From Bacteroidota bacterium (GTDB taxonomy: Bacteria; Bacteroidota; Bacteroidia; Bacteroidales; F082), in assembly GCA_013203805.1 (NCBI GenBank), contig JABMPH010000484.1:1-32849 (forward strand): a stretch of 32,849 nucleotides of DNA, given 5' to 3'. Below are positions 711 through 10,191 of the stretch, piece by piece; within the stretch, counting starts at the first letter, position 1, and each line of letters starts with the position of its first letter. The notes under the pieces were generated by a model. The model did no database searches. It saw nothing but the letters and a program-made list of their open reading frames with translations, and was not told the DNA's origin. The position numbers were made by a program, and so were the translations under genes.

Positions 711-950
711 TCATAGCATCAAAAGGAAATGCTTGGCATTGTAAGCCAACCCGTTGATGATAAAGACAGTATGCGTATCGCGATCAATAACTACCCTTAT
801 AACCATGTAGACCTTTTTGACTTCGAGTAATGCAAAATCTTGAATGGGTGATACACGGAAAGGGCAGTATACTCTTGTTAGTTTATAAGGTGTGATTACG
901 AGTATTGAAAAATCACTTACATATCTGATTACTTCTTCAAACTCAGACAT
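711..950 (-). CDS. 79-aa protein of unknown function, last gene of the recombination block
   Basis: This encodes a 79-residue protein starting MSEFEEVIRYV, from the ATG at 948-950. That start lies 2 bases past the stop codon of the DUF3871 gene; an ATG six codons earlier (968) would overlap that gene. The spacing indicates translational coupling as the last member of a leftward operon. The sequence is rich in valine, isoleucine and tyrosine and looks like a small beta-sheet protein (LVITPYKLTRVYCPF, VYMVIRVVIDRDTHTVFII). There is no signal peptide, membrane segment or motif that I know. Small uncharacterised proteins in this position are common in Bacteroidota integrative elements, and I infer an accessory role in the element rather than a host function. 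The palindrome at 626-680 follows its stop codon. Confidence 0.55.
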   Translation of the reverse strand: MSEFEEVIRYVSDFSILVITPYKLTRVYCPFRVSPIQDFALLEVKKVYMVIRVVIDRDTHTVFIINGLAYNAKHFLLML

Positions 951-952
951 AA

Positions 953-1921
953 CTACTGAATATACCATGAACTGTTACGCTTGTTTAATCCACTTTTCAG
1001 CTCATTAGTTAAGGTTAGTTGACTTACATTTCTGTCTAAAAATGAGTCGATATATGAGGACTTATTCGCTCCTGTACATAAGTTATAGAAATTAAAGAGG
1101 TTGATATTTCCTCCTGGCGTTCCGCAAAATGATTCATCATTATAGTATGACTTAACCATAGCTGACAATTGTGAATCCCCAAGGTTTGCCGGGACTATTC
1201 CATTTTTCATTTCTTTGGATAGGAATGGATACATCTTCATTTTTCCTACTACATGAGCAAACTGAGTTTCGGTAAGTTTGTAGTTGAATAGATCACTGAG
1301 GTTATTCAATTCTTCTACAACATTAAAATCCGAAAGCAGGTTCACAACCTGTTCAATAAGCTCATGTGTTTTTGATATCCTGATATCCCCGAGGAATCCG
1401 TCAGTCGATATACAAAAGTTAGTGCAAACATGATTTTTAAACCCAACGAAAACCTTGAACCTTTCAAGAGATTTACGTGAATACAGATTCTCAAGATTGT
1501 AAGCACGTACACCCCCAACAGTTAAAGAAAGTTGATTTCCGTTGATAGTATTTCTTATAGTGGGGATCTCAATGGAGAATGCCATTCTTTCATAATATAG
1601 TGTTTTTTCAAAATCAGAAAGTAACTTAGCCGGCTTTCCCATTGCACTTGGAATCCGGCCTTTTATGGGATGTGAAACCCGGATTGCTGGTTTAAGAATC
1701 TCCTCTCCTGAAAAAATGTGCTCAACTGTTTCAGCTACAGCTTCAATGAACTCAGAATGACTTATAGTAGATTCGTTGTCTTTAGAGAAATTGGGAATTA
1801 TGCATTCATTCTTTAGTAAATCAAGAGAAACAGGGGTAGTATTGGATACAATGAAATTGTCATCCGATGACCTCTTAGCTTTTTCAGCTGTAAATGCGGG
1901 TAATACTTTAACTATTTCCAT
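953..1921 (-). CDS. DUF3871 family protein
   Basis: This encodes a 322-residue cytoplasmic protein that I recognise as DUF3871, a family of unknown function largely restricted to Bacteroidota mobile elements. The recognisable stretches are PVSLDLLKNECIIPNFSKDN, ISHSEFIEAV, IRVSHPIKGRIPSA, YYERMAFSIEIPTI, LSLTVGGVRAYNLENLYS, VCTNFCISTDGF and, near the end, NLCTGANKSSYIDSFLDRN. Length agrees with the family's usual 310-340 residues, so the gene appears intact. The ATG at 1921 overlaps the ATPase gene by 14 bases; an ATG at 1945 would give eight more residues and a 38-base overlap. No enzymatic motif is evident. The fixed position after a RecA-core ATPase suggests a role in DNA maintenance or recombination of the element, but this is inference from neighbours only. 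Confidence 0.85.
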   Translation of the reverse strand: MEIVKVLPAFTAEKAKRSSDDNFIVSNTTPVSLDLLKNECIIPNFSKDNESTISHSEFIEAVAETVEHIFSGEEILKPAIRVSHPIKGRIPSAMGKPAKLLSDFEKTLYYERMAFSIEIPTIRNTINGNQLSLTVGGVRAYNLENLYSRKSLERFKVFVGFKNHVCTNFCISTDGFLGDIRISKTHELIEQVVNLLSDFNVVEELNNLSDLFNYKLTETQFAHVVGKMKMYPFLSKEMKNGIVPANLGDSQLSAMVKSYYNDESFCGTPGGNINLFNFYNLCTGANKSSYIDSFLDRNVSQLTLTNELKSGLNKRNSSWYIQ

Positions 1922-2753
1922 TTTCAGAGAATTTGAAGTTTTCATTTAGTTGTTGATGATGAGAATCAGCAGAGTTCATTTTCCTATTGAATAGTATAGT
2001 ATCATTAACCTCATCTGAGTCAAGAGGTTTATGTTGATTAGTTTCAGGGAAAGGCTGCACCAGTATTAAAGGGTCTAATCCTTCTTCGCACCAGTTTTTT
2101 ATTAACCTTCCTGTGGATTGAGTTACTATGAATGAAGGCTGATCCATGAAGAGTTGAGTTCTGTCCTTGGAAGCCACAGCATTGTGTTTTATATTCAGAT
2201 CAAGAACTACAGTGAATTCATAATCCATATTCTCTCTTGTAACGCCTTTCAGACCAACTTTTTCAGGCACGTGTTTGCCATTCTTCTGAGTTAGTACATA
2301 GTCCTGTTTAGAACGTATAGTCCCAATCACATGACAACTACTGCTTAGTATCTTCTGGACGAATCCATTGTGTCGAGGGGTAAGTTTTGCCCAGTTAGTA
2401 AAACTATTACCCATCATCGAGCTATGCACATCAAGAATACCTCCTTGCCCTTCCCACTCATGAGAAATAGAATCGAGAATAATAACTTCCATACCTGATC
2501 TCTCAGCCAGTATTATAGCTTCAATAAACTTCTCAGGTGAGTATGGTGCAGTAATCTGTATCACATTGAATGCTCCTAAGTGTGCATATAGGTTTGATGA
2601 CCCATTTTCGGTGTCGATTACTACTGTCTTACTCCATGATCCACATAGACCATGAGCAAGCAATAAAGAACTAAAAGTTTTACCGGAACCACTTGGCCCT
2701 TGTAAAGCAATTTTCATTTTAGATTGTTTCCTTTCGGCTTTATTAATTTTCAT
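1908..2753 (-). CDS. RecA-core AAA ATPase, phage nucleotide-binding (Sak4-like) type
   Basis: This encodes a 281-residue P-loop ATPase. Walker A is GPSGSGKT at residues 19-26; IDTENG follows at 46-51, and Walker B is VIILDSISHEW with the acidic residue at 94. The layout (P-loop almost at the N-terminus, a D-x-E strand, then hhhhDSIS, then an arginine/lysine-containing GTIRSKQDY) is that of the phage nucleotide-binding family AAA_24, to which the Sak4 single-strand annealing proteins belong. Sak4 proteins are RecA relatives that promote annealing or strand exchange in phage recombination. I chose the ATG at 2753 because family members begin with a short MxIxKAxRK segment; a start at 2777 lies inside a hairpin. 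The C-terminal 60 residues are polar and probably disordered. The gene overlaps the DUF3871 gene. The enzyme class is clear; the recombination role is inferred. Confidence 0.8.
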   Translation of the reverse strand: MKINKAERKQSKMKIALQGPSGSGKTFSSLLLAHGLCGSWSKTVVIDTENGSSNLYAHLGAFNVIQITAPYSPEKFIEAIILAERSGMEVIILDSISHEWEGQGGILDVHSSMMGNSFTNWAKLTPRHNGFVQKILSSSCHVIGTIRSKQDYVLTQKNGKHVPEKVGLKGVTRENMDYEFTVVLDLNIKHNAVASKDRTQLFMDQPSFIVTQSTGRLIKNWCEEGLDPLILVQPFPETNQHKPLDSDEVNDTILFNRKMNSADSHHQQLNENFKFSENGNS

Positions 2754-2768
2754 AAGATGAGTTTTAAT

Positions 2769-2787
2769 GGGAGGCATGAAACCTCCC
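2769..2787 (-). promoter_or_regulatory. GC-rich hairpin just upstream of the ATPase start
   Basis: On the minus strand GGGAGG, a 7-base loop containing ATG, and CCTCCC form a 6-bp GC stem in the 47-base gap before the ATPase gene. The stem contains a GGGAGG that could serve as a ribosome binding site. No U-tract follows, so a terminator is unlikely. A related sequence lies in the leader of the upstream 117-aa gene (about 3187-3205). Confidence 0.4.
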
Positions 2788-2800
2788 GTTTCTGAATAAT

Positions 2801-3154
2801 TTAATTTTCTATAGGCTCTTGAACCGTACCTTCATACACTACTTGTTCTTCTGTTTTCACTTCAGGAAGGTAAATCCAGCGGTGATAAAGTGTTTTTATT
2901 TCACCAGTTTCAGGTATGGTATATTCATAGGGCTCACAAGCAAGTTTCTCTACTTTACCAGAGATTTCCCTACCGATAAGTCCCTTACATGTATTTCCAT
3001 CAAAAGTTGTTGTGATTGATGCATTCTTGGATGTAGCATAGAACAATCCTGTTTCCTGACTTTGTGCCATTACAATTTCTCCCTGAACAATCAGTGAATA
3101 GAATGGTAATCCATCTGAGTTTTTACACTCTTTGTAATCAATAATCTTGACCAT
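2801..3154 (-). CDS. 117-aa beta-rich protein of the recombination block, possible ssDNA-binding partner
   Basis: This encodes 117 residues starting MVKIIDYKECKNSDG from the ATG at 3152-3154. It is the first gene of the leftward block and is followed after 47 bases by the Sak4-like ATPase. The sequence is dominated by alternating hydrophobic/polar strands (FYSLIVQGEIVMAQ, ISGKVEKLACEPYEYTI, HRWIYLPEV) and ends in an acidic tail (EEQVVYEGTVQEPIEN). There is no signal peptide. I have the impression of related hypothetical proteins next to DUF3871 genes in other Bacteroidota, but I know no named family. A small beta-rich protein with an acidic tail beside a Sak4-like ATPase resembles the single-strand-binding partner such ATPases usually have, so an OB fold is a reasonable hypothesis, but the sequence alone does not prove it. 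Confidence 0.6.
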   Translation of the reverse strand: MVKIIDYKECKNSDGLPFYSLIVQGEIVMAQSQETGLFYATSKNASITTTFDGNTCKGLIGREISGKVEKLACEPYEYTIPETGEIKTLYHRWIYLPEVKTEEQVVYEGTVQEPIEN

Positions 3155-3484: not shown

Positions 3485-4249
3485 ATGAAATTATACTTAA
3501 CCCAAATCTCAGTAATAATTTTAATATCAATTTTATTGTTTTCCTGTCAAAAAGAAGACTCCCTCTCTCATTCGGGAACCAAACAGTATATGGCTCGCTC
3601 CGATTCTGCGGTAGACAACAATCGACCAGGTATTGACGGAGTATGGCGAACCACTAAACAGTGGACATCTGAGTCATTTATCCTTTGGTTTACTTGGGAT
3701 GTAAATATGTATCCAGCAGGATGTTATCTCCTTGATATGAATACTATGGATACTGCAGCCAGATGGGTATTTGAAGTAAATGATTTGGGTCAAATAACCA
3801 AGACAACTAACTCCGAAGATTACTACAAGGAGTATGGATATGATCCCATCACTCATAAACTTGTGTCCATGTCAACATCTGGAGGGAGTCCAATTGAATA
3901 CTTTTGGAACAACACTCTCGATACAGTATGGAGTGGATTAATCAGTGAAAATACCTGGTTGGAAGTGGATAGTAATAATAATATCCTAACTCAAGCTGGA
4001 AATGGGAATGTACAAACATTCACACAGTATGAACACCCTAATTCACATGTACATTACGCACCGACCTCATTCTTTGAAGGGCCTACAAGTAATTACAACA
4101 TATTGGATGAACAGTATAATTCAAGTGGAAACTTAATAAGATTCGCTACCGTTGACTCCGCTGTAGACGGGAGAGTATACCGATATACACTTGATGGAAC
4201 TCTCACTTTTCATTTTGAATGGACATTTCTAACCTATGATGCCCGATAA
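3485..4249 (+). CDS. Putative lipoprotein of unknown function (shares leader and signal peptide with next gene)
   Basis: This encodes 254 residues. The N-terminus is a type II signal peptide with lipobox LLFSC, cysteine 21, so the protein is predicted to be membrane anchored after lipidation; the following residues QKED lack an obvious surface-export signal beyond being acidic. The body has many aromatic/Asn/Gly strands and paired segments that resemble one another loosely (YYKEYGYDPITHKL, NILDEQYNSSGNLI, YRYTLDGTLTFHF), in the style of YD-type beta-hairpin repeats, although the repeats are too divergent for a firm call. The first 21 residues and about 80 bases upstream resemble those of the LruC gene that follows, as if the same 5' cassette were joined to different bodies. 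Function is unknown; it is probable cargo of the integrative element. Confidence 0.75.
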   Translation: MKLYLTQISVIILISILLFSCQKEDSLSHSGTKQYMARSDSAVDNNRPGIDGVWRTTKQWTSESFILWFTWDVNMYPAGCYLLDMNTMDTAARWVFEVNDLGQITKTTNSEDYYKEYGYDPITHKLVSMSTSGGSPIEYFWNNTLDTVWSGLISENTWLEVDSNNNILTQAGNGNVQTFTQYEHPNSHVHYAPTSFFEGPTSNYNILDEQYNSSGNLIRFATVDSAVDGRVYRYTLDGTLTFHFEWTFLTYDAR

Positions 4250-4304
4250 GTAAATAAAAACCGCCACCCTCTCCCATAGGATGACAGTCAATGGAGGAGA
4301 TGAA

Positions 4305-4316
4305 ATGATATTTGCC
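4305..4316 (+). promoter_or_regulatory. Conserved ATGATATTTGCC box, second copy
   Basis: This is identical to the box at 3399-3410 and lies 77 bases before the LruC gene. It is preceded by ATGGAGGAG, where the first copy is preceded by ATGGGAGGA, so the similarity extends beyond the box. Equal spacing to both start codons argues for a shared promoter or leader function. Confidence 0.4.
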
Positions 4317-4392
4317 CTTTTATTTATAGATTATCCAAAAAATAATTATTGAAATACACTGTGACTATTAACTTTAAATCTTTAGCTTACTT

Positions 4393-6735
4393 ATGAAAGT
4401 ATACTTGATCCAAATCCCGATAGTGTTTTTAATTACATTCTCATTCTTTTCCTGTACAAAGCATCAACAAAAAAGAGTAGAGCCCACATCATTTAACAAA
4501 TTAGAAGTCCCCAATGATTTTGACTGGGAGCTTAGCCAAACGATAGATTTGGAGGTTATTAGTTCTAAAACAGGTGTCATTAAAGTTACTTCTGAGGATG
4601 AGTCTGTTGTTTTTCATGTAGGGAAAAATAGTAATCAAGATGAAGCTTATAAATGTCAATTCTCCATTCCTACTTATGTTGAGAGCTTCAAAGTTAATGG
4701 AGTGTTGACAGAAACAAGTAATAATGTGAGTATGAACTTGGATAAATTCAAATCAGCCAATAATGATGATTGGTATATTGATTTAGGGGATGTTTATGAA
4801 TTTGAGTTTCCTGATACACCCATAGATGACTATTATAGTGAAGTTGTTGGTGAAAATAAAATTATAGTTGGCTATAATAATGGAATGAATCTATATGCAA
4901 CTCTCGCTACTGTAGATGGATTAAATATTATAAAGGATAGAAGAGTTATCGTTAGCCCAAATTGGGGGAGGCATTTTGAAATAGCTGCAGTTTCTGAGGA
5001 TAAAGTAATATTTTGTTACTCTGTTACGAATAATGATTTCACACAGGCATTTTTGAAAATTGGAACTATAAATGGAACAAGCATCGAATATTCTGATGGT
5101 ATTCTAATAACTGACCAGAACATAGACCAACTTTCAATTGAAGTATTGTCAGATGGAAAATTCATAGTTGGTTATAGCTATTCCACAAGTGGGGAGATAT
5201 TCATTAAAGTTGGAAGATTAGAAAGCAACGTTATTGTTTTTGAACAAGCACTACCTCTAAATCAAAATGTTACATCAGATTATATAGTAGAAAAAAAACT
5301 TCATTTAAATAAACTTAAAAGTAATAAAGCAATAATATGTTATTTAGATAGAGATGCTGGAAATGGTCTATCATGTATGATTTTTGATAATACAACAAAC
5401 TCTTCTTTAATAGGTCCCATTATAACCCTTACTGATGGGGATTTCAGTAATATTTCAATTGCTGTTATGAATGGGAACAAGGTAGTTCTTACTGACAATG
5501 GTGGTCCTACATCAAAAACATATTTACTTGGCCTTGATGGTAATGTTATCAGTCACTTAGGTGATGTTGTTACAGATGTATTTATATCACAGCGAAGTAG
5601 TGTTACAAAGTTAAATGATGATCAATTTGCAATAAGTTTTACTGAGCATCAAACAAATACTCCAATGATTGAGTGGTCAGTTGTTAAGGTTGGAACTATT
5701 CAGGGAAATAACATTACTTTTTCGAATAGAAAGAATCTGAATAATATGTATAGTTATAATCGGGACCTTGGAACAAATCATACTATTGGCCCAAATCACT
5801 TTTATTCAAGTTTTAGACAATGGACCCCAGGAAGACCAATTTCATTGGTTGTAGGAGAATATACGTATGGAGGTTCTAATCAAGACACAGATGGTGATGG
5901 AGTTAGTGATAATGATGATGCATTTCCAATTGATCCAAACAAAGCATTTATTAATTATTACCCAACAAGTAGCTATGGTACTTTAGCCTTTGAGGATCTA
6001 TATCCATATATGGGAGATTATGATTTTAATGATGTTGTTGTTGATTTTAGATTCGAAATGTATTCAAATTCTGATAATTTAGTAACTGATCTAAAAGTTA
6101 ACATAGTAGCAAGGGCAAGTGGTGCATCATTTGAAAATGGCTTTGGGTTTTCCTTTTATGATCAGCAAGGGATACTAAGTGGAAATATTAGTGTCACAGG
6201 ATGTGTTTTAAGTGAAGGAATAATAGAAACGGGCTCCAATGGTCTTGAACTGAATCAAAGCAAACCAACTATTATTGCATTTGATAACTTTTTTAATATT
6301 CTGTCAACTGCTGGGGGAATGGGAGTTAACACTACTCCTGGAGCACAATTTGTACCCTATGATACTATATGCTTATATTTTCAAATTAATACACCGGTTA
6401 GAATGTATGACGTTGCTCCTTGGAATTGGAACCCGTTCATATTTGTAAATGGTAATAGAGGTCATGAGATTCATCTCAAAAACAAACCGTCAACGAGTCT
6501 TGTTGATGAAAATATTTCAGGTACTGGTGAAAGCAGTGGATGGGGTTATTATACTACTAGTACCTATTTACCATGGGGGCTACAGGTTCCTGAGTCAATT
6601 GATTATCCAACAGAGGAGACTGATATTTTAAATGCTTTTAATCATTTTCGCGAATGGGCTGAAAGTGGAGGTCGAGAGAATAATTCATGGTATAAGGATT
6701 TTCCTGGCAATAGGAATAATGAACTATTATATTAA
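4393..6735 (+). CDS. LruC domain-containing lipoprotein with probable beta-propeller
   Basis: This encodes 780 residues. The signal peptide ends in lipobox FFSC with cysteine 21. Residues about 40-140 form the N-terminal segment typical of LruC lipoproteins (VPNDFDWELSQTIDLEV). Residues about 145-495 are six or seven repeats of about 50 residues, each with an exposed strand and an xKVGTIxGNxI-like turn (for example LKIGTINGTSIEYS and VKVGTIQGNNITFS), which I read as a beta-propeller. A calcium-binding thrombospondin type 3 style repeat follows at about 498-513 (DTDGDGVSDNDDAFPIDP), then the LruC/DUF4842 domain with YGTLAFEDLYPYMGDYDFND to the end. The C-terminus (WAESGG, WYKDFPGNRN) is the family's usual one, so the gene is complete. 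LruC proteins are outer-membrane lipoproteins of unknown function; the propeller suggests a binding role. Confidence 0.88.
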   Translation: MKVYLIQIPIVFLITFSFFSCTKHQQKRVEPTSFNKLEVPNDFDWELSQTIDLEVISSKTGVIKVTSEDESVVFHVGKNSNQDEAYKCQFSIPTYVESFKVNGVLTETSNNVSMNLDKFKSANNDDWYIDLGDVYEFEFPDTPIDDYYSEVVGENKIIVGYNNGMNLYATLATVDGLNIIKDRRVIVSPNWGRHFEIAAVSEDKVIFCYSVTNNDFTQAFLKIGTINGTSIEYSDGILITDQNIDQLSIEVLSDGKFIVGYSYSTSGEIFIKVGRLESNVIVFEQALPLNQNVTSDYIVEKKLHLNKLKSNKAIICYLDRDAGNGLSCMIFDNTTNSSLIGPIITLTDGDFSNISIAVMNGNKVVLTDNGGPTSKTYLLGLDGNVISHLGDVVTDVFISQRSSVTKLNDDQFAISFTEHQTNTPMIEWSVVKVGTIQGNNITFSNRKNLNNMYSYNRDLGTNHTIGPNHFYSSFRQWTPGRPISLVVGEYTYGGSNQDTDGDGVSDNDDAFPIDPNKAFINYYPTSSYGTLAFEDLYPYMGDYDFNDVVVDFRFEMYSNSDNLVTDLKVNIVARASGASFENGFGFSFYDQQGILSGNISVTGCVLSEGIIETGSNGLELNQSKPTIIAFDNFFNILSTAGGMGVNTTPGAQFVPYDTICLYFQINTPVRMYDVAPWNWNPFIFVNGNRGHEIHLKNKPSTSLVDENISGTGESSGWGYYTTSTYLPWGLQVPESIDYPTEETDILNAFNHFREWAESGGRENNSWYKDFPGNRNNELLY

Positions 6736-6766
6736 TCGAAATAACATCATTTTAAAATTTACATAT

Positions 6767-6907
6767 ATGCAATATTTTATTTTCCCGTTAATTATTTTTT
6801 TGATTCTTAAATTTGGACTGCACTCATACAGGCAAGGAGACAGACAGATACCCCCAATAACATTACTTATATCTATTGTCCTATTAATTATAATGTTTGT
6901 AATTTAA
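6767..6907 (+). CDS. Small two-helix membrane protein
   Basis: This is a 46-residue open frame from the ATG at 6767, starting 31 bases after the LruC stop codon. It has two hydrophobic segments, about residues 3-17 (YFIFPLIIFLILKFG) and 30-46 (ITLLISIVLLIIMFVI), joined by a polar, positively charged loop (HSYRQGDRQIPP). This is a plausible small inner-membrane protein with both termini on the same side. The frame stays open further upstream through the end of the LruC gene, but that part is a shadow. It ends 24 bases before the next small membrane protein and may be co-transcribed. I do not recognise a family; a chance frame in A/T-rich DNA is the main alternative. Confidence 0.4.
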   Translation: MQYFIFPLIIFLILKFGLHSYRQGDRQIPPITLLISIVLLIIMFVI

Positions 6908-6931
6908 TTATGAGAAAACACAGTTTGTATC

Positions 6932-7231
6932 ATGAGACAGCTACTGTTTATTTGTGCAGCAATTCTATTGTTAGGAATCTTGGAGCTACCAATATGGTAT
7001 TATTTTTTCCTAAGAGTTATTGTATCAGTTACATCGGTGATAGTTGTTATCATTGAATTAAGAAACGAAGGTATATCAGTTTGGTATATTATCTTCGGAT
7101 TTATCGGGATAATTTTTAATCCAATTATCCCGATATATCTAAATAATAAAGGAATTTGGGTTGTCCTTGATGTTATAGCAGCCATTATTTTTATATCAAA
7201 AGCAATGGCAGTAGTACCAAAAAAAAAATAA
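6932..7231 (+). CDS. Small membrane protein, DUF6804-like
   Basis: This encodes 99 residues with three or four hydrophobic helices: about 3-20, 24-42, 49-66 and 77-93. The motif FNPIIPIYL after the third helix, followed by a W and a D in the last helix (WVVLDVIAAIIF), agrees with my memory of the DUF6804 family of small bacterial membrane proteins. The length is typical and the C-terminus ends in PKKK, probably cytoplasmic. No function is known for the family. It lies between the LruC lipoprotein and another lipoprotein, all rightward, within the presumed cargo of the integrative element. A 261-base spacer with no gene follows. Confidence 0.7.
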   Translation: MRQLLFICAAILLLGILELPIWYYFFLRVIVSVTSVIVVIIELRNEGISVWYIIFGFIGIIFNPIIPIYLNNKGIWVVLDVIAAIIFISKAMAVVPKKK

Positions 7232-7492
7232 TGGAGTACTCATATTTGCATTTTTACTTACAATCTAAATTCTTTTATAAAAAAGCAATTACACACCATT
7301 TTACAATAGTTAAATATCAACAGTACTAAAAAAAGGCTATAGTATTAATAAGACTTAACAGAAAAAATGAAAATAAAGTAAAAATCATATCTATTTAGCA
7401 GGTTCGCGTATCAACAGATGTAATCACAAAAAATCCTAGAAAAGATCAGTAATATAATCTTACACAGATTCTAAAAATTAACCTTATTAATT

Positions 7493-8521
7493 ATGAGACA
7501 AACCATCTTTTTCATTATTATTTCCCTAATCACAATATCTTGTAATAGGGCTGAAAATAAAAGCATAACAGCTGACAATGTATTATCGTTAAAGAATAAA
7601 AATGCGACCTCTGTGTTGATGGATTTCAAGCAAATAGACACAGTAGGATTAAAAGGATTGCAGGTTATTAGTAAAAAGGAATTAATAATTGATGGTACAA
7701 TTGAGTTTTCTGATAGTATTATTAAAGTATACAAATCGGATGCTTTTGAGAAGTACATGATAGTGAAAGTAGTTACTCATGAAGATGGATACGAACTTCA
7801 CACTAATAACAATAGGAACGAGAGATGTATTTACAGTATAATATATAATTCAGAAGATATTGTTCAAGGACATTTCATCGATTTAGAAATGATGGCAATA
7901 TTCCACATCTCAAATGGATTTGCCACCCTGAAGACATTTTATAATGATCCAAAAGATAATGTTGAAGCTGATAATTCTTTAGGGTATATAAAGAATGATC
8001 CCATACTGAATACAAGTGTTACTGAGAAACTGAAAATAATTAACCTGAGCTTAACAATAGCTATAGACTCTTTGAATTATGAGATCGCAAATAGAGATGA
8101 ATTGCTTCAAGACAAGTTGGATAAGATTGAGTCGTTAAATAAGGAAATTAAGGATTTGAATTACTTATACACCAAAAAAACTCCACACGGTAAAGCTCTT
8201 GGTAATAATACTTATTTCGTTGAACATCCTATTATTGAAATAAATAGATTAACATGGACAAATTTTGATGGTGTCGGAAATGAGAAGTCTATTCAAAGAG
8301 TTGCTGTTAAAAATAATGGTGATGGTATTATTGATAATATATTCATCGAATATGTGGTTTTTGATGTTCAAGGGAGAGAAATTAACTCAGGTGAGGTTAG
8401 TTTGATGCAGAGTTATGAAAAGATAAAAGCAGGAAAAGCTGTTGAGTTTTTTAAAAATGGACCATACAAGAATAAGTCTGATAAGATGGTACTTAAAATA
8501 GCAAGAATCATGTATAGATAG
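7493..8521 (+). CDS. Putative lipoprotein with central coiled coil
   Basis: This encodes 342 residues. The signal peptide ends in lipobox ITISC with cysteine 17. An N-terminal part of about 170 residues of unknown fold is followed by a predicted coiled coil at about 180-228 (IDSLNYEIANRDELLQDKL, then DKIESLNKEIKDL). A C-terminal beta domain covers about 245-342 (RVAVKNNGDGIIDNIFIEYV, VSLMQSYEKIKAGKAVEF), which looks like an immunoglobulin-like or DUF-type extracellular domain with the usual alternation. I know no named family for the whole protein. It is the last rightward cargo gene and converges with the integrase remnant (124-base gap). Its location at the envelope is well supported; its function is unknown. 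Confidence 0.75.
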   Translation: MRQTIFFIIISLITISCNRAENKSITADNVLSLKNKNATSVLMDFKQIDTVGLKGLQVISKKELIIDGTIEFSDSIIKVYKSDAFEKYMIVKVVTHEDGYELHTNNNRNERCIYSIIYNSEDIVQGHFIDLEMMAIFHISNGFATLKTFYNDPKDNVEADNSLGYIKNDPILNTSVTEKLKIINLSLTIAIDSLNYEIANRDELLQDKLDKIESLNKEIKDLNYLYTKKTPHGKALGNNTYFVEHPIIEINRLTWTNFDGVGNEKSIQRVAVKNNGDGIIDNIFIEYVVFDVQGREINSGEVSLMQSYEKIKAGKAVEFFKNGPYKNKSDKMVLKIARIMYR

Positions 8522-8645: not shown

Positions 8646-9866
8646 TCAAACTGCATCACCATACTTTCCTTGTATCTTATTCATGTCTTTTGAAATAAGA
8701 TCATCAACAACACGAGCATATTTCTTGGTCATATTTATACTTGAATGGCCAAGCATTTTTGATACTACCTCAATAGATATATGATTTGATAATGTGACAG
8801 TAGTAGCGAAAGTATGACGTGCTGTGTGAGTGCTTAAATTCTTCTCAATTACACAAAGATCTGCGATTTCCTTTAGGTAGGAATTCATTTTTTGATTACT
8901 TGGAACTGGAAAGACAAGTCCTTTGCTCTGACAAACAGGATGTTCTTTATATTTATTTAGAAGAGCTACCGCTGGTTCCAGTAAGGGTATATTACACCAG
9001 TTTTTAGTTTTCTGTCTTTTCTTTTTTATCCAAAGCTTGTCAGCATTATTCACAATCTCGCTATATTTCAAGTTCTTTACATCAACGAAAGCAAGTCCAG
9101 TAAAGCAACAGAAGATATATATATCACGAACTTATTGTAGCCTCTGAATAATAAATTCCTTTGCCATTAATTTTAATAACTCAGACTCTGAGAGAAAATC
9201 AATATCAACCTCCTCAAGATGGAATTTAATACCTCTAAATGGATCTTTCATCATCCAACCATTATCGACTGACATTCGGGTTATTTTCTTAAGATTCCGT
9301 AGGTATTTCACAGTAGTATTATGAGCACACTTCTTTTTTATTTTAAGGTAGTATTCAAAATCTTTGATTACGGAGGGTGTAATTTCATTTAGTTTAAGGT
9401 CATCCTCCTTATACATGTACTCAATGAAATACTTTGTATGACTGTAACAGGTTTTATATCTCTCAACAGTACCAGGAGCAAAATCAATATCAATTAACTC
9501 TTCACATCGATCATTATGCTCCTTAAAAACTTCGAGAATTGTTCTTTGCTTTTCTTCAAGTCCAAGGTATGAGTTCTTTACTGAATCAGCAGTTATCTCT
9601 TTTCCTCCTTCTTCAAGGATTAACTTATGATCATAAATACTCCTTTTTATTTGATCCACTTGGTTATTTATTTGTTTCGCTATTTTCGAGCTTCCTTTGA
9701 CACGCCCATATATGCTCTCCCATTGATTGAGATCAATATCCCTTTGGATTCCAAAGTCTACTCTCTCTTTGTTTACAGTTATTCGAGCATAGATTGGTGC
9801 GTTTCCATTTTTTAACTTTTTTGTTCTCTTAATAAAGAACGACACTCTGAAAGTTGGTCTTTTCAT
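8646..9866 (-). pseudogene. Tyrosine recombinase (phage-type integrase) interrupted by one in-frame stop
   Basis: The frame has 407 codons and would give a normal-length Bacteroidota integrase of about 406 residues, but codon 245 is TAA (9132-9134). Both halves lie in the same frame, so this is a nonsense change and not a frameshift; the sequence reads IIQRLQ-stop-VRDIYIF, and a single C-to-T change from CAA would explain it. The N-terminal half holds the arm-binding domain (FRVSFFIKR) and the SAM-like core-binding domain. The C-terminal half has the catalytic HxxR (codons 347 and 350 in HTARHTF), LGH (374) and tyrosine 383 (KYARV). The first catalytic arginine position reads FTGLAFVDV, lacking Arg, as in several Bacteroidota recombinases such as IntDOT. 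Each half retains its domains, but a functional enzyme would need read-through. The gene starts next to the tRNA-Ser 3' end. Confidence 0.85.

Positions 9867-10102: not shown

Positions 10103-10191
<89 letters not shown>

Follow-up and report, generated by a model that had tools for sequence, protein, structure and literature searches.

A DUF3871 cassette with a RecA-core ATPase and a predicted OB-fold protein on tRNA-inserted elements of Bacteroidota: a putative single-stranded DNA handling module

The window analyzed here is a 32,849-nucleotide stretch of DNA from a metagenome-assembled genome (MAG) of a Bacteroidota bacterium (assembly GCA_013203805.1; contig JABMPH010000484.1, positions 1 to 32,849). 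Four genes on its minus strand (Table 1), transcribed in the order 117-amino-acid (aa) open reading frame (ORF), ATPase, DUF3871, and 85-aa ORF, form the cassette that is the subject of this work. The ATPase and DUF3871 ORFs overlap by 38 bp, and the 85-aa ORF (p85) overlaps the stop codon of DUF3871. A first-pass annotation, made from the sequence alone, had read this arrangement as a possible recombination block of the Sak4 type with a single-stranded DNA (ssDNA)-binding partner of oligonucleotide-binding (OB) fold. The ORF map bears out the genes and their order, including the overlap of DUF3871 with the ATPase, and the 79-aa protein named in that annotation is the 85-aa ORF begun at the second ATG of its frame. 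Most ATPase relatives in the alignment start at or near the second ATG (M9) of the window ORF. The DUF3871 gene product matched PF12987 at an E value of 1.1e-113, its sole Pfam family at E ≤ 1, and the ATPase matched AAA_24 (PF13479) at 1.4e-18 and 67.9 bits (curated cutoff, 27). The 117-aa protein (SSB117) matched no family in Pfam, PHROGs, or NCBIfam at E ≤ 1, nor did the 85-aa protein except for a weak PHROG match (0.045). Both represent conserved families, with relatives of SSB117 in 68 and of p85 in 52 of the 95 DUF3871 loci described below; p85 lies no more than 300 bp downstream of DUF3871 in 45 of its 52 loci.

Table 1. Features of the window and, in the last row, two gene pairs from other loci that are discussed in the text
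Feature	Coordinates	Strand	Basis
SSB117 (name given here), 117-aa predicted OB-fold protein, putative ssDNA-binding partner	2801..3154	-	ORF, AlphaFold2 (AF2) model, Foldseek, locus survey
RecA-core ATPase, AAA_24 / phrog_1366 branch, 289 aa	1908..2777	-	Pfam, PHROGs, hhalign
DUF3871, DUF932-like fold (predicted), 330 aa	953..1945	-	PF12987, AF2, BFVD matches, hhalign
p85 (name given here), 85-aa ORF, conserved small protein	711..968	-	Relatives in DUF3871 loci, alignment
Tyrosine integrase, single in-frame stop	8646..9866	-	Arm-DNA-bind_5, Phage_int_SAM_5, Phage_integrase (Pfam, two ORFs)
tRNA-Ser(GGA), probable insertion site	10103..10191	-	ARAGORN
Variable cargo region separating cassette and integrase, with lipoprotein-like ORFs and a DUF4842 protein	3485..8521	+	ORFs, Pfam
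DUF932-family / YqaJ pairs	L138 1477-2244 and 339-1271 (= L162); L139 1354-2121 and 2325-3260 (= L163)

Co-occurrence was counted in 395 Bacteroidota genomes, with a threshold of E ≤ 1e-20 for the ATPase. DUF3871 was found in 16 genomes, SSB117 in 12, and the ATPase in 16. All 12 SSB117 genomes fell inside the DUF3871 set (hypergeometric probability, 7e-20), as did 12 of the 16 ATPase genomes (1e-16; neither value is corrected for phylogeny), and the ATPase occurred without DUF3871 in four genomes. Thirteen of the 14 SSB117 matches lay within 10 kb of DUF3871 on the same contig, the lone match elsewhere being on a contig of 5.7 kb in the genome that holds the window. The conserved linkage of the three families that had been proposed is therefore seen at the level of whole genomes. 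Gene order was read in 95 loci, comprising 80 genome loci (the best 80 of 517) and 15 viral loci (a 16th, a short fragment, was left out). Because these loci were found by DUF3871 similarity, DUF3871 is present in all 95 by choice, a selection of which the 395-genome counts are free; some contigs are cut, and ORF overlaps were taken with the longest start. Among the genome loci, the ATPase was present in 72, directly upstream of DUF3871 in 67 and with overlapping ORFs in 54; SSB117 was present in 61, within 2 kb upstream of DUF3871 in 50, further upstream in 4, and downstream in 7; and p85 was present in 48. Every cassette gene found in these 80 loci was on the DUF3871 strand. The 15 viral loci held the ATPase in 7, SSB117 in 7, and p85 in 4. 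The first scans of viral contigs, with the 117-aa alignment and with a single DUF3871 sequence, gave no match; they have no bearing on absence, since viral loci with both families were found later.

Linked inheritance alone does not prove interaction. Mantel correlations among the cassette genes (r = 0.57 to 0.80) do not discriminate, because those between cassette genes and the integrase were equally high (r = 0.55 to 0.86). These values would suit mere co-inheritance, with DUF3871 an unrelated regulator that shares the operon by chance, but the overlap of ORFs in 54 of the 80 genome loci argues against such an arrangement, and reshuffled orders keep the set together (SSB117 downstream of DUF3871 in 7 of 80 loci; p85 upstream of it in L044, L052, and L101). 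We consider chance association improbable.

An AF2 model of SSB117 built from 70 aligned sequences (pLDDT, 86; predicted template modeling score [pTM], 0.69) has strands at residues 2-11, 17-31, and 38-49, a helix at 53-59, and strands at 67-79 and 86-96. This is a predicted five-strand OB barrel with the helix between strands 3 and 4; the tail (residues 102-116) was predicted with low confidence. The model agrees with the earlier description of the protein as beta-rich and with the OB fold expected of it, and the structural matches were weak. In a Foldseek search of the PDB, the top ten matches were all single-stranded DNA-binding proteins (SSBs), as were 19 of the first 23, with a best E value of 0.043 and a probability of up to 0.98. 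VIA-align placed PrgE of plasmid pCF10 first (Z, 5.2; root mean square deviation, 3.4; 75 aligned), followed at Z scores of 4 to 5 by PriB, SSBs, and additional proteins. By sequence, SSB117 matched neither the bacterial SSB profile PF00436 nor the SSB_HK620 type (phrog_743, DUF669) at E ≤ 1, and tblastn of the protein in phages gave no match at E ≤ 10. Comparison of its alignment with the single HK620 SSB sequence by hhalign scored 0.1%, a comparison too shallow to exclude kinship. The acidic C terminus claimed for it held in part: 57 of the 70 family proteins carry a net negative charge over their last 15 residues, but the body of the protein is acidic too. We also asked whether a tipped SSB substitutes in loci without SSB117; this was ruled out, with none in 27 such loci.

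The ATPase had been assigned the AAA_24/Sak4 layout. Its best PHROG was phrog_1366, which has no assigned function (4.5e-78), with the Sak4 family phrog_124 second (5.5e-8). Its alignment scored 91 to 95% by hhalign against RecA, 82 to 93% against PA73-type Sak4, 46 to 64% against HK620-type Sak4, and 21 to 87% against Sms, depending on direction; against the single HK620 Sak4 sequence the alignment gave no match, a comparison too shallow, and the deeper alignments were used instead. RecA chains were at the top of the profile search of the PDB (single-copy RecA, E = 0.014), and in the genome the AAA_24 profile ranked RecA and then RadA/Sms next after three cassette ATPases. Alignment to RecA showed the P-loop, the Asp-x-Glu motif, and Walker B to be collinear. 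The pattern [IVL]D[TSA]E, which aligns with the IDAE of RecA, was present in 173 of 175 ATPase members, whereas none of 83 HK620-type Sak4 proteins had an Asp-x-Glu pattern in the first 80 residues. The strict P-loop pattern was found in 126 of the 175, nearly all others having A or S for the first G. The C-terminal ~60 of its 289 aa are poorly conserved; Sak4_HK620 has 226 aa and itself scores 30 bits against AAA_24. These profiles place the ATPase in the RecA core group and not in another P-loop clade.

Phage relatives extend this picture. The ATPases of Acinetobacter phage TRS1, Erwinia phage 59, and Pseudomonas phage KLEP17-4 belong to phrog_1366 with values of 4.5e-78 to 6.2e-102 (the window protein included), and together with that of Bacillus phage phi105, found by BLASTP, are 37 to 50% identical to the window ATPase. 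For several phage relatives the annotation reads RecA-like recombination protein, often in the form “RecA-like recombination and repair.” In 80 viral contigs surveyed for this ATPase (ORF recovered in 79), the recurrent neighbor families, each named from one scanned member, included SSB (9 loci), DUF3127 (14), Gp157 (11), and two exonuclease-like families (9 and 6). ORFs with an SSB-type tip numbered 34 of 1217 on the plus strand compared to 2 of 918 on the minus strand, and 32 of the 80 contigs had a neighbor from the SSB, DUF3127, or a 96-aa family, mostly ending in LPF or IPF. DUF3871 was on just 4 of the 80, all of them already counted with the viral DUF3871 loci, a difference from the cassettes of genome loci. 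The DUF3127 and 96-aa families look SSB-like because their members end in LPF (12 of 14 and 9 of 9, respectively; examples are L377 1870-2229 and L373 7329-7619). PMC8093625 treats Sak4 and PF13479 as the same family and names gam, orf157, and SSB as neighbors of sak4. Because of the profile kinship to AAA_24 and RecA, that published equation, and the phage neighbors, among them SSB and Gp157 as published for sak4, the ATPase classifies by sequence as Sak4-type in the broad Pfam sense, on a branch of its own (phrog_1366) that appears to be sister to the characterized Sak4 proteins. A separate observation is that in L053, L105, and L012 the ATPase is split or shortened beside a full-length DUF3871, as if it were dispensable there.

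The ranking of RecA also bears on the possibility that the cassette is a replication module, in which the ATPase and the OB protein act in initiation or elongation (helicase loading, primosome), DUF3871 binds an origin or fork, and recombination is secondary. Three observations would suit this explanation: PriB ranks with the top fold matches of the OB protein, 14 of the 95 loci have a VapE-like family in the neighborhood of DUF3871 (downstream of it in 12), and phage Sak4 is described in PMC5499656 as needed for phage replication. However, both the AAA_24 and the ATPase profiles rank RecA before other P-loop proteins, RecA was the best of four profile comparisons (RecA, two Sak4 types, and Sms; a DnaC-type loader was not among them), and VapE is not in view in most loci. 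We regard a replication module as possible but rather unlikely.

Two points were missed by the first-pass annotation: the resemblance of DUF3871 to the DUF932 superfamily and the existence of cassettes without the ATPase. The AF2 model of DUF3871 (pLDDT, 91; pTM, 0.87) gave 20 BFVD matches by Foldseek at E ≤ 0.001; six of them are labeled with a family, in each case DUF932, TIGR03299, or DUF945. The best labeled DUF932 match had an E value of 1.0e-6 and the best overall 4.8e-8 (template modeling scores, 0.59/0.67), in a comparison of a prediction with predictions. Against an alignment of 29 DUF932 proteins, hhalign gave 52% and 49% (E = 1.4e-4 and 1.8e-4) over 171 to 176 columns, with 13 control pairs at 2.1% or less; a shallower alignment of 7 DUF932 proteins gave 4%. 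Both families share a VC-N motif, and the aligned region ends in LW-x-x-YN-x-x-T. DUF3871 thus resembles the DUF932 phage and plasmid proteins, with a predicted fold of that superfamily and, faintly, its sequence signature. It differs from them in that it does not match Pfam DUF932 (PF06067) at E ≤ 1 and is tied to SSB117. Searches of the PDB returned weak, unrelated rows (Foldseek probability ≤ 0.15 in the first 50), and VIA-align against the PDB gave Z scores of at most 6.8, to Mediator and capping proteins. Rad52- or RecT-like chains were absent from the PDB rows shown, an absence that does not exclude likeness.

SSB117, DUF3871, and p85 occurred with no ATPase in view in 5 of the 80 genome loci. 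In four smaller loci from another bacterial family (L014, L015, L017, and L018), the ATPase is not between the cassette genes; the genomes of the first three (G081, G227, and G143) are without an ATPase match at E ≤ 1e-20, and the fourth (G061) has a shorter relative further downstream. Since the ATPase is missing from some cassettes, the functional core may consist of DUF3871 and the OB protein. DUF3871 might then itself be the annealase, a DUF932-like single-strand annealing protein with the ATPase as optional helper. The cassettes without an ATPase would fit this explanation, as would the stricter tracking of DUF3871 by SSB117 than by the ATPase and two DUF932-family genes that adjoin a YqaJ exonuclease, a position often held in phages by an annealase. 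Set against it are the mixed neighbors of DUF932 genes and the lack of visible likeness to Rad52, RecT, or Red-beta, which was looked for only in the PDB rows shown and is a point that cannot exclude it. We hold this alternative to be conceivable, at odds well short of even.

The DUF932 neighbors were scanned in 29 loci (145 neighbors chosen by length from 300 ORFs; 25 of 74 families shown) and included SSB (3), PDDEXK_1 (3), YqaJ (2), RadC (3), and PRTRC_E (3). In six phage DUF932 regions, one had Gam and one an ssDNA-binding gene ~2 kb away. That DUF932 always stands beside recombination genes was ruled out by this mixture. The two YqaJ-adjoining genes (Table 1) encode a 255-aa DUF932-family protein that is 86% identical in two genomes, and in L133 an SSB gene (752-1162) is directly followed by a DUF932 gene (1228-2301), after which comes a PRTRC_E gene (2419-3069). 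The DUF932 PHROG (phrog_1221) has no assigned function. Titles and abstract openings of papers naming DUF932 or TIGR03299 do not mention annealing, DUF3871 appeared in the open-access papers searched in one passing mention (a table row), and a joint search combining DUF932, DUF945, or DUF3871 terms gave no such paper among the matches listed. It is a speculative and on balance doubtful idea that the DUF932 superfamily is a so far unrecognized class of single-strand annealing proteins or recombination mediators that depend on an SSB, and that DUF3871 is the Bacteroidota branch of it carried by elements; the partners of the superfamily would be a tip-less SSB in the elements, an ordinary SSB by the PRTRC gene, and YqaJ or PD-(D/E)XK nucleases elsewhere.

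The cassette sits on tRNA-inserted elements of Bacteroidota. In the window, 236 bp separate the 3' end of the tRNA-Ser(GGA) gene from the start of the integrase, whose frame contains one stop codon, so this copy of the element is probably immobile on its own. The tRNA end is single copy in the window, whose left end coincides with the contig end, and the other end of the element lies off the contig. ARAGORN, run on 58 of the 80 genome loci, found a tRNA in 32, upstream on the cassette strand in 27. In 16 of these 27 an integrase ORF followed 99 to 234 bp after the tRNA, and in 11 of the 27 the tRNA was tRNA-Asn(GTT). An exact copy of the tRNA end of at least 22 bp was found downstream in 8 of the 27 (22 to at least 60 bp), delimiting elements of 12.7 to 19.7 kb. 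This search covered flanks of up to 10 kb, without a shuffled control, and longer elements would be missed because the flanks end there. Apart from L060, from an Ignavibacteriales MAG, the loci carry Bacteroidota names (79 of the 80 best). The proposed carriage on integrative elements of this phylum is consistent with the tRNA and integrase context, but the annealing role attached to it remains a proposal. Recurrent neighbors in the 95 loci, whose Pfam names rest on one scanned member per family, were integrase (49), GIY-YIG (24), and RadC (22), besides the VapE-like family, which hints at a phage satellite and is suggestive only.

The window MAG has two further ATPase-DUF3871 pairs, one on contig C53 and one, accompanied by the 117-aa gene, on C155; contig C72 holds a fragment of DUF3871, and C237 a lone SSB117 relative. 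Contig C69, which has restriction-modification-like ORFs, contains an exact 20-bp second copy of the tRNA-Ser end (L406 10013-10032); ARAGORN found no tRNA in the surrounding 3 kb. This copy might mark the opposite end of the window element or of a sister element. A faecal scaffold deposited as “Bacteriophage sp.” (MT839478.1; L023 1-4253) encodes the ATPase-DUF3871 pair; it may be a piece of such an element and not of a phage. The element context allows one more explanation, counter-defense or phage interference, in which the proteins would bind host or phage recombination factors and not element DNA. Restriction-modification genes in element neighborhoods and the Gp157-type family near the phage ATPase branch (11 of 80 loci) could be taken in its favor. 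What is conserved, however, is a set for DNA processing (OB fold, RecA core), and the cargo of the window is hardly common to the 95 loci: of the cargo ORFs compared, a relative was found for DUF4842 only, in one locus. We judge this explanation very unlikely.

We hypothesize that the four genes form an ssDNA handling module of a tRNA-inserted mobile element that coats, positions, and pairs, and we give this a probability of about 0.5. The best reading of the cassette is as a variant of the phage Sak4-SSB module (HK620, PA73) with a DUF932-type partner; gene order, linkage, predicted folds, RecA-core kinship, and element context are its basis. The OB protein would coat single-stranded element DNA made on excision, on replication, or on arrival in a new cell. 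DUF3871, serving this OB protein alone, would bind the coated DNA and recruit or position the core RecA-like ATPase, which would pair complementary strands in an ATP-consuming reaction like that of Sak4. The outer two steps, coating and pairing, draw on the published pair: in PMC5928155, HK620 Sak4 anneals ssDNA with ATP, stimulated by the neighboring SSB, and the last six residues of SSB_HK620 are needed for this stimulation. Because the OB protein is tip-less, we guess that the contact made by the SSB tail in HK620 is provided here by DUF3871. We infer ssDNA binding, physical contacts among the proteins, annealing, and a step in the life of the element that would need the cassette.

The likeness to the Sak4-SSB module lies in an AAA_24 RecA-core ATPase beside an SSB-like gene; DUF3871, p85, and carriage by tRNA-inserted elements are additions of the cassette. 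Several findings weigh against the hypothesis. BLASTP of the window ATPase against the tested Sak4 proteins (HK620, PA73, and phi11) gave E values of 1 or more, and of the proposed Sak4 layout it is thus the AAA_24 match and the RecA-core kinship that stand, on a branch separate from those proteins. SSB117 had no PDB Foldseek match at E ≤ 0.001, its VIA-align Z scores were modest (5.2 at most), and its profile matched no solved SSB in the PDB. None of the 70 SSB117 family proteins has the SSB-type C-terminal end PF, the other respect in which the claim for its tail falls short; SSB_HK620 ends in PPF, and we take the missing end as a difference, not a refutation, because the annotated SSB of PA73 lacks it as well. 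At the thresholds used, 4 of the 16 DUF3871 genomes were without SSB117 and 4 of 16 were without the ATPase. None of the three partners was in view in 7 of the 15 viral and 3 of the 80 genome DUF3871 loci, and the large genes upstream of the partner-less viral DUF3871 had nothing evident in common (DEAD helicase, SIR2-like, archaeal-type ATPase, no family). DUF932 genes, finally, adjoin recombination genes only in some loci. Of the three outcomes that would have refuted the first-pass annotation (a non-OB fold for the 117-aa protein, an ATPase from a different P-loop clade, or families without conserved linkage), none was observed. As a recombination block, then, the cassette keeps the predicted OB fold, the RecA-core AAA_24 ATPase, and the linkage, but it has neither an ATPase that BLASTP relates to the tested Sak4 proteins nor an OB protein with a PF end.

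If the ssDNA handling hypothesis is correct, two unknown families would gain one testable biochemical role, and for DUF3871, a family of so far no known function, it would be the first. Bacteroidota would have a native annealing module with possible use in genome editing; small tRNA-inserted elements would, as a class, gain a defined core.

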